A DNA stretch of 8,893 bases from Nitrospinae bacterium RIFCSPLOWO2_12_FULL_45_22 (GTDB lineage Bacteria > 2-12-FULL-45-22), in the NCBI GenBank assembly GCA_001803565.1, contig MHDQ01000087.1, positions 1 through 8,893 of the forward strand, read 5' to 3'. This document shows, one piece after another, positions 3,876 to 7,042 of this stretch; the first letter of the stretch is position 1, and each line of letters begins with the position of its first letter. The notes under the pieces are model-generated. The model had not been told where the DNA came from and made no database searches. It worked only from the letters and a program-made list of their open reading frames with translations. A program made the position numbers and the translations under genes.

Positions 3876-3976
3876 CCCCTGCCAAAAAAGCCCAAAAAAT
3901 CTAAGGTGACAGCTTCAATTTACATTCCGCACCCTTCCGAGAAGGCCAGAAATAATTTGTAGTGGGTTGAAAAAGG

Positions 3977-4016
3977 GGACACGAATTACACGAATAGACT
4001 AATGGCACGAATGAAG
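3977..4016. repeat. CACGAAT-type dispersed repeat
   Basis: Within the 257-base gap between the GGDEF and radical SAM genes, CACGAAT occurs three times (3980-3986, 3989-3995, 4006-4012). The ten bases GGACACGAAT at 3977-3986 recur inverted at 6918-6927. Nothing coding is visible in this gap. The remaining sequence has only a small CCTTC/GAAGG hairpin near 3932-3944. Confidence 0.5.
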
Positions 4017-4025
4017 AAAAAAAAA

Positions 4026-4050
4026 CCAGCAAAGCAAGCTTTGCCACTAC
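4026..4050 (-). repeat. REP-like hairpin with GTAG head, left unit of an inverted pair
   Basis: Read on the minus strand, GTAGTG (4050-4045) is followed by a perfect 7-bp hairpin GCAAAGC-TT-GCTTTGC (4044-4029). A GTAG tetranucleotide before a short hairpin is the signature of REP elements mobilised by RAYT (TnpA-REP) transposases. It faces the unit at 4085-4106, forming a REPIN/BIME-like pair. Confidence 0.65.
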
Positions 4051-4084
4051 ATAATGCTATGGCAGTGCTAGTTTATTAATATCT

Positions 4085-4108
4085 GTAGTGGTCGAGCTTG
4101 CTCGACAC
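4085..4108 (+). repeat. REP-like hairpin with GTAG head, right unit of an inverted pair
   Basis: GTAGTG (4085-4090) is followed by GTCGAGC-TT-GCTCGAC (4091-4106), a perfect 7-bp stem with a TT loop. Head, stem length and loop are the same as in the left unit. Three stem positions differ, and in each case both partners have changed. The two units point towards each other across 34 bases. There is no T-run after the stem in either direction that would make it a clear terminator. Confidence 0.65.
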
Positions 4109-4132
4109 CCCCTTTTCTTCAGTAACAACTAA

Positions 4133-5236
4133 TTAATCAAACAATCTTTTAGTAACATAGAGGTAGGGTTTTAAAAATTTCCACAACAGGATAGACCCCG
4201 CCTCCCGAAGAAATAACTGTAAATAGCTGGTCCCCCCTAAGCAACTCTGACAATAAGGGTGGATAACCCGAAAACGTTGAAACCCTTTGAGGATAGAAAT
4301 GAGATCAGGGGAATTTAGGATATTAGGGAGCTCTTGATGACATAAATTACCTACTGCAGTGTGGCCATCAAAATCTCGACAACAAAGGACTAGATCGCCA
4401 TTCCATAAGATGCTAAAATGATCGGCTATAGCAGGACAATAGCCAAACCTGGCTCTCTTGATAGGCTTTTGGATTAAGGTATTACCCCAATTATCCAGGA
4501 TATAAGTCTCCAGAAAAATGCGGGGATAGACTTCTAGGACATTCCATTTACGCAGAGAGACCCTTTTTATCCTTTCTAAGACCCTTTCTTCTCTGATACG
4601 GTTCTGAGCCCCTTCCAAACCATACAGTTTCTTCGTCCATTGGGCCAAGGCACTATGCAAGTCAGGTATCTGTGTTGCGACCCCTCCCTGATCCAAGGGA
4701 GTAACTAGTAACCTTCTGTCTTTAGAGTTTAGTAAGTGGAGCTTGATGGTAGTTTCGCCTTTGTTCTGGATAAGCAAAGAGATAAAGTTAAGAATATTCT
4801 GAAAGTATTCCTCAGCGGTTAGCCTCCCCGCTTGCCTCAGAGCAAAGCTATCTTCATCAGGCGTTTGGAGAGAAATATTTATTTGATCGAGCTCTAAGGC
4901 CAACAATCTATCTATATTCTCCTCAGTAAATAGACTACCATTAGTAGTCAGTCCTACTTTGCACCTCATATCCCTGGCATAGGCTATAATCTGAAATACC
5001 TGGGGGTGGAGCATTGGTTCCCCCATTACATGAAAAGTGATCTTTTCGGCTATATCCATCTCTTTTAAATCCGTAATGACCTTTTTGGCCAATTCCAGAG
5101 TCATATAGCCCTTTTCCCGGGTCATTAAAGAGCTAGGGCAAAAGGTGCACCGGAAATTGCAAATATTTGTTAGTTCCATATGGACCCGGGAAATAGGGAA
5201 GGATACATATTTCTTAATAATATCAACCTTACTCAT
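4133..5236 (-). CDS. Radical SAM protein with C-terminal SPASM-type cysteines
   Basis: Radical SAM enzymes use a 4Fe-4S cluster to cleave S-adenosylmethionine and start radical chemistry. Here the cluster ligands are C26, C30 and C33 (CNFRCTFC), followed by the GEP motif (MGEPMLHP, 71-78) that helps bind SAM and a typical TTNGSLF strand (97-103). The C-terminal part has further cysteines at 267, 285, 286, 299, 329 and 332 in the context GYCPA, LVLCC and YCQSC, which fits a SPASM-like auxiliary cluster domain. The length of 367 residues is normal for the radical SAM/SPASM group, whose members modify peptides, sugars or lipids. The substrate is not evident. AAAGGG sits about 6 bases before the ATG. 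It lies 72 bases downstream of the PadR gene on the same strand, so shared transcription is possible. A hairpin (5259-5296) occupies that gap. Confidence 0.9.
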   Translation of the reverse strand: MSKVDIIKKYVSFPISRVHMELTNICNFRCTFCPSSLMTREKGYMTLELAKKVITDLKEMDIAEKITFHVMGEPMLHPQVFQIIAYARDMRCKVGLTTNGSLFTEENIDRLLALELDQINISLQTPDEDSFALRQAGRLTAEEYFQNILNFISLLIQNKGETTIKLHLLNSKDRRLLVTPLDQGGVATQIPDLHSALAQWTKKLYGLEGAQNRIREERVLERIKRVSLRKWNVLEVYPRIFLETYILDNWGNTLIQKPIKRARFGYCPAIADHFSILWNGDLVLCCRDFDGHTAVGNLCHQELPNILNSPDLISILKGFQRFRVIHPYCQSCLGGTSYLQLFLREAGSILLWKFLKPYLYVTKRLFD

Positions 5237-6872: not shown

Positions 6873-7000
6873 TTTACCGCAGAGGAGCAGAGACCCAGAG
6901 AAAACTATACTTACGTGATTCGTGTCCGTAAGAATAAAAGGAAATCCGCTAAATGATCATGGTATTAGACTCTTCTCTGGGCCTCTGCGTCTGCGGTGAA
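6873..7000. repeat. Inverted-repeat element (about 128 bp) with 28-30 base arms
   Basis: The left arm (6873-6902, beginning TTTACCGCAGA and ending CCCAGAGAA) and the right arm (6973-7000, beginning TTCTCTGGG and ending TCTGCGGTGAA) are near-complementary, with about two indel positions and two mismatches. The 70-base interior contains a smaller palindrome, CTTACG (6910-6915) with CGTAAG (6927-6932), enclosing ATTCGTGTCC, the reverse of the repeat at 3977-3986. No open frame lies inside. The right arm is part of the second copy of the repeat seen at 1541-1597. It is probably a non-autonomous palindromic element. Confidence 0.6.
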
Positions 7001-7042
7001 AACTTGCAATAAAGTATATGGTTGTATTGAGTGGCGTCTTTT

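Follow-up and report, generated by a model that had tools for sequence, protein, structure and literature searches.

RAYT activity is usually taken as the sole explanation for REP repeats. In the BIMEs of Escherichia coli, the partner REPs are of the Y and Z types. RAYTs cut single-stranded REPs at a cleavage site guided by GTAG (PMC8266576), and the stems of other REPs retain their pairing (Nunvar 2010, PMC2817692).

The hairpin pair described here resembles the GTAG REP families and RAYT REPtrons (PMC2817692; Di Nocera 2013, PMC3733652; PMC8266576) in its GTAG head, short perfect palindrome and 2-nt loop, and also in its high copy number, paired stem variants, inverted pairs and association with flanked RAYT genes in relatives. 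It differs from them in a head that is fixed as GTAGTGG, with two extra unpaired bases, in a 22-mer that is identical across phyla, and in a host genome without a visible cognate RAYT, where MITEs house most of the copies. REPINs and E. coli BIMEs (Bertels and Rainey 2011, PMC3116915) are likewise built on an inverted REP doublet of fixed spacing, and the two partner units differ from each other as they do in E. coli BIMEs; however, the present pair is arranged head to head around a 34-nt spacer, and the doublets ride inside TIR elements. These elements are similar to bacterial DDE-type MITEs in size (~110–220 bp), in their TIRs, in the 8- or 9-bp duplications of two families (A and C, below) and in having no coding capacity. 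In contrast to such MITEs, they have REP doublets as cores, with several different doublets in a single TIR family.

The REP pair and its family

The window is an 8,893-nucleotide stretch of DNA from Nitrospinae bacterium RIFCSPLOWO2_12_FULL_45_22. The pair is located between two convergent genes, one of which is a radical SAM gene, and comprises two 22-nt units, head to head. The features of the locus are as follows.

4029–4050, minus strand: REP unit with a CAA-type stem, GTAGTGGCAAAGCTTGCTTTGC (GTAGTGG-CAAAGC-TT-GCTTTGC)
4085–4106, plus strand: REP unit with a TCG-type stem, GTAGTGGTCGAGCTTGCTCGAC (GTAGTGGTCGAGC-TT-GCTCGAC)
4051–4084, no strand: spacer between the two GTAG heads, 34 nt, near the typical spacing of MITE family B
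4115–4135, plus strand: right TIR of MITE family B, TTCTTCAGTAACAACTAATTA, with 3 mismatches to TTTTTCAGTGGCAACTAATTA
4000–4023 (approximate), no strand: expected place of the left TIR, decayed or replaced; the best match has 8/21 mismatches and adjoins a GACACGAATTACACGAAT repeat
4027–4046, minus strand: predicted intrinsic terminator, the minus-strand hairpin followed by GTTTTTTTTT (nine T), downstream of the radical SAM gene

The minus-strand unit, read from 4050 to 4029, consists of GTAGTG, GCAAAGC, TT and GCTTTGC, and the plus-strand unit, from 4085 to 4106, of GTAGTG, GTCGAGC, TT and GCTCGAC. Both thus display an unpaired GTAG head, a 7-bp stem and a TT loop, the form of GTAG-class REPs, and the feature is a true pair of GTAG-type REP repeats. 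The original prediction had placed two such units here on opposite strands, with stems that differ at three consecutive pairs and with both partners altered each time, and all of this was confirmed. It had also described the units as pointing at each other, which needs correction: with the GTAG heads facing across the 34-nt spacer, the units read outwards, away from each other. GTAGTG also occurs at 3959, where no hairpin follows; this third instance may be accidental or a decayed copy.

Folding of the two units as single-stranded DNA is modest (z of −2.5 and −1.8). Nevertheless, the hairpin family extends far beyond chance, since a search of the window genome assembly (3.67 Mb in 321 contigs, 85% complete) with GTAGTGNNNNAGCTTGCT at up to one mismatch returned 110 matches, compared to 0 for the reversed control pattern; the motif is hence not unique to this locus. 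Pairing in the stems was assessed with a search pattern in which three stem positions on each arm were unconstrained. In the window genome, all of these positions are complementary in 69 of 73 units (shuffle mean 29, maximum 45), and the same pattern gave 55/64 in a Desantisbacteria genome. Among 21 distinct variants, there are 24 double-change cells compared to 9 in shuffles, with a covariation of 0.367 against 0.169, and this signal is lost when the partner position is slid. The compensatory changes, originally read from only two units, are thus real.

The 38 two-unit clusters of the genome are all inverted, with head distances that cluster at 18, 34–36 and 50–51. A TCG-stem unit is joined to a CA(G/A)-stem unit in 37 of 37 two-unit clusters of the window family; the 38th belongs to a different REP family and was left out of this count. 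The same hetero-pairing of TCG and CAR stems also dominates in other phyla. The identical TCG-stem 22-mer is found in Planctomycetes, Desantisbacteria, Stahlbacteria/WOR-3, Ratteibacteria, Zixiibacteriota, Brocadiales and others, and viral contigs contain 12 single matches to the unit. Where a genome has just one copy, as in Stenotrophomonas, it may represent a chance match or another REP. In Desantisbacteria (L102:1791–2133), the units are arranged head to head with 2-nt gaps, in tandem arrays with a 57-nt period that mix CTTG and TTTA loop variants.

MITE families around the pair

Alignment of window-type copies revealed inverted repeats directly outside the hairpins, TAATTAGTTGCCACTGAAAAA...TTTTTCAGTGGCAACTAATTA, which define MITE family B; this TIR has 32 matches in the window genome. 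Both TIR ends are present in other family-B copies, and the window copy retains the right end alone, whose sequence overlaps with the radical SAM stop codon. On this alignment, the window pair probably forms the centre of a decayed MITE copy of ~120 bp, an element that the original prediction overlooked. The family-B flanks carry a 6-bp TAATTA on both sides in 6 perfect cases, compared to 3.3 expected by shuffling, a count that speaks neither for nor against duplication because the flanks are almost always TAATTA. The CAGTCTGTCGGAG family gave a similarly equivocal duplication test, its target being, as for family B, itself palindromic or nearly so.

Other repeats are found in and around these elements. 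The window contains GACACGAATTACACGAATAGACTAATGGCACGAAT and similar 'attcgtgtcc' stretches at 3977–4020 and 6914–6930, apparently another dispersed repeat, and one stretch of this type abuts the decayed left MITE end. Stretches of the form 'CTCTGCG...CTGCGGTGAAA' at 1535–1575 and 6880–7010 are possibly a further dispersed repeat family. At G000 C190:3862–3947, C33 and C257, another inverted repeat element (GTTATTAGGTCATTAGG...) interrupts the REP spacer of family-B MITEs, and C257 has an additional nested insert. The sole Rfam match in the window is a group II intron domain (RF02001, 8541–8715, plus strand, 125 bits), near the end of the contig.

The same REP pair is also the core of two more TIR families in this genome, A (GTAACCGTTCA) and C (GGGTGTGGCTATT), and a fourth TIR family, GTAACAGTTTAGCCA, was recognized by eye, with an 8-bp AAACAAAG duplication at C165. 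Approximately 49 of the 71 unit clusters lie within families A, B or C, and ~22 have no MITE assignment. Target duplications are 8 bp in family A (6/13 perfect, 0 expected) and 9 bp in family C (6/18 perfect, 0.12 expected). Two further TIR families contain this doublet in the Yes70-08 genome; one of them shows 8-bp duplications (8/19 perfect versus 0), and in it 2 of the 19 copies contain a GTAGGG-type doublet instead. In other copies of family C, the REP doublets are different and have GTAACT, GTAGGG or GTAGCG as heads, and copies of family A are also found with unrelated cores. The core junctions differ from core to core, so precise swapping at one site is not claimed. The form that the doublet takes in family C, as well as outside MITEs and at the RAYT, is head-out with a head spacing of 46–66 nt, and the GTAGCGGAGACCTTTAGGTCTCC hairpin of family-C cores also flanks a RAYT in Zixiibacteriota bin1014 (L251).

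These occurrences, in at least five TIR families from two genomes, with other doublets in two of the families, lead us to lean towards the view that REP doublets have been captured repeatedly as interchangeable cores of DDE-type MITEs, which would give them a TIR route independent of RAYT. We found no description of REPs as interchangeable MITE cores in the open-access literature. In the window genome, MITE transposition is probably the best explanation of the spread, based on the TIRs and duplications of families A and C; for family B we infer the same. Since the window pair and most copies are in MITEs, with duplications in two families, amplification in this genome was probably not mainly driven by RAYT.

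RAYT genes in the window genome and in other phyla

Since no RAYT-like ORF was seen at ~100 loci with exact matches to the unit, RAYTs were looked for genome-wide. The window genome contains five Y1_Tnp loci, three of which (L003, L004 and L001) score above the NCBIfam cut-off for REP-associated transposases. L003 and L004 are flanked by their own, different REP types, and the window unit is beside none of the five loci in the 85%-complete assembly. The reading frame of L004:1270–1995 (C141) includes two GTAGTG hairpins that belong to another REP family, both translated as GSGRSPDL, and a third hairpin follows the gene.

The situation in other phyla is different. The sole RAYT of a Ratteibacteria genome (L243/L263) has window-type units on and around the gene, which are close variants with differing heads. 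In the coding sequence of this RAYT (L243:1459–1917), two REP units are in frame (VVAELALL and KAKQALPLQ), the catalytic motifs are intact, and a third unit is located just past the stop codon. Querying with the Ratteibacteria RAYT identified a RAYT clade in many of the genomes that share the 22-mer, with conserved HxH (HUH) and Tyr catalytic motifs. Hairpins with a 6-nt head, a 7-bp stem and a TT loop flank 10 of 12 members of this clade, with very different stems; these hairpins were selected by requiring at least 6/7 pairs, so they demonstrate the format and not an unbiased covariation. At the Zixiibacteriota PFL53 RAYT (L266), the exact TCG unit occupies one flank, and the partner unit occurs on both. 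The closest match to the clade in the window genome is 28% identical and contains a stop codon, and no RAYT of the cognate clade was seen in its 85%-complete assembly; for the window organism, the RAYT step is thus a putative one.

The proposal that the hairpins are recognized by a RAYT therefore stands in part: RAYTs flanked by the same units, with catalytic motifs retained, are present in Zixiibacteriota (L266) and Ratteibacteria (L263, with variant heads), and the five Y1_Tnp loci of the window genome lack the unit. Format, covariation and the flanking of RAYTs in relatives mark the hairpins as RAYT-type recognition units, on which the RAYTs of this clade would presumably act as published RAYTs do on single-stranded REPs.

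Nature and spread of the pair

The pair is likely a hetero-pair of GTAG REPs, from a RAYT-mobilized family, that forms the core of a decayed MITE of ~120 bp between convergent genes. The mobilizer of the REP family would be the RAYT tyrosine transposase, where it is visible in other phyla, and the hairpins would be cut by RAYT as single strands, now or formerly in the source lineage. Most copies in the window genome would have been spread by DDE transposases that use the TIRs in trans, and the minus-strand hairpin, as a predicted terminator, may now end transcripts of the radical SAM gene.

In line with the RAYT reading of the original prediction, the pair could instead be a plain REP or BIME that a RAYT, working in trans on single strands of DNA, copied into this place, which would make its position within a MITE incidental. 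Copies of the unit that flank RAYTs in other phyla and pairs in the window genome outside the assigned TIR families are consistent with this, and a cognate RAYT may be missing because the assembly is 85% complete. We nevertheless consider it unlikely, given that most clusters fall within three TIR families, of which two show target duplications, that the window copy has a recognizable MITE end, and that no RAYT of the cognate clade was seen in the 85%-complete assembly.

Improbable, too, is that the hairpins are maintained solely as bidirectional terminators between genes, with repetition reflecting selection for termination. The minus-strand hairpin with its nine T does score as a terminator (1 found, shuffle mean 0.3), and the window pair is between convergent genes; however, the GTAGTGG head is fixed and stem pairing is strict whatever the T-runs, and a terminator role predicts neither TIRs nor target duplications. 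By a crude gene model, clusters are not enriched between convergent genes, with 3 of 71 in such a position and most in tandem contexts. Any role of the predicted terminator for the radical SAM gene would be secondary.

That the hairpins are no REPs and form the ordinary subterminal structure of a single MITE family is hardly credible: the window copy is inside a TIR-bounded element, but the pair is found in several MITE families with different TIRs, in the Desantisbacteria tandem arrays, beside RAYT genes and, in direct contradiction, outside MITEs.

If REP doublets are routinely carried in DDE-type MITEs, the abundance of REPs need not mirror RAYT activity, and genomes without a cognate RAYT could still acquire REPs. 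Such carriage would also provide a plausible vehicle for the presence of one doublet in distant phyla. Moreover, the order of events, insertion of REPs into MITE hairpins versus capture of REPs by MITEs first, would become testable.
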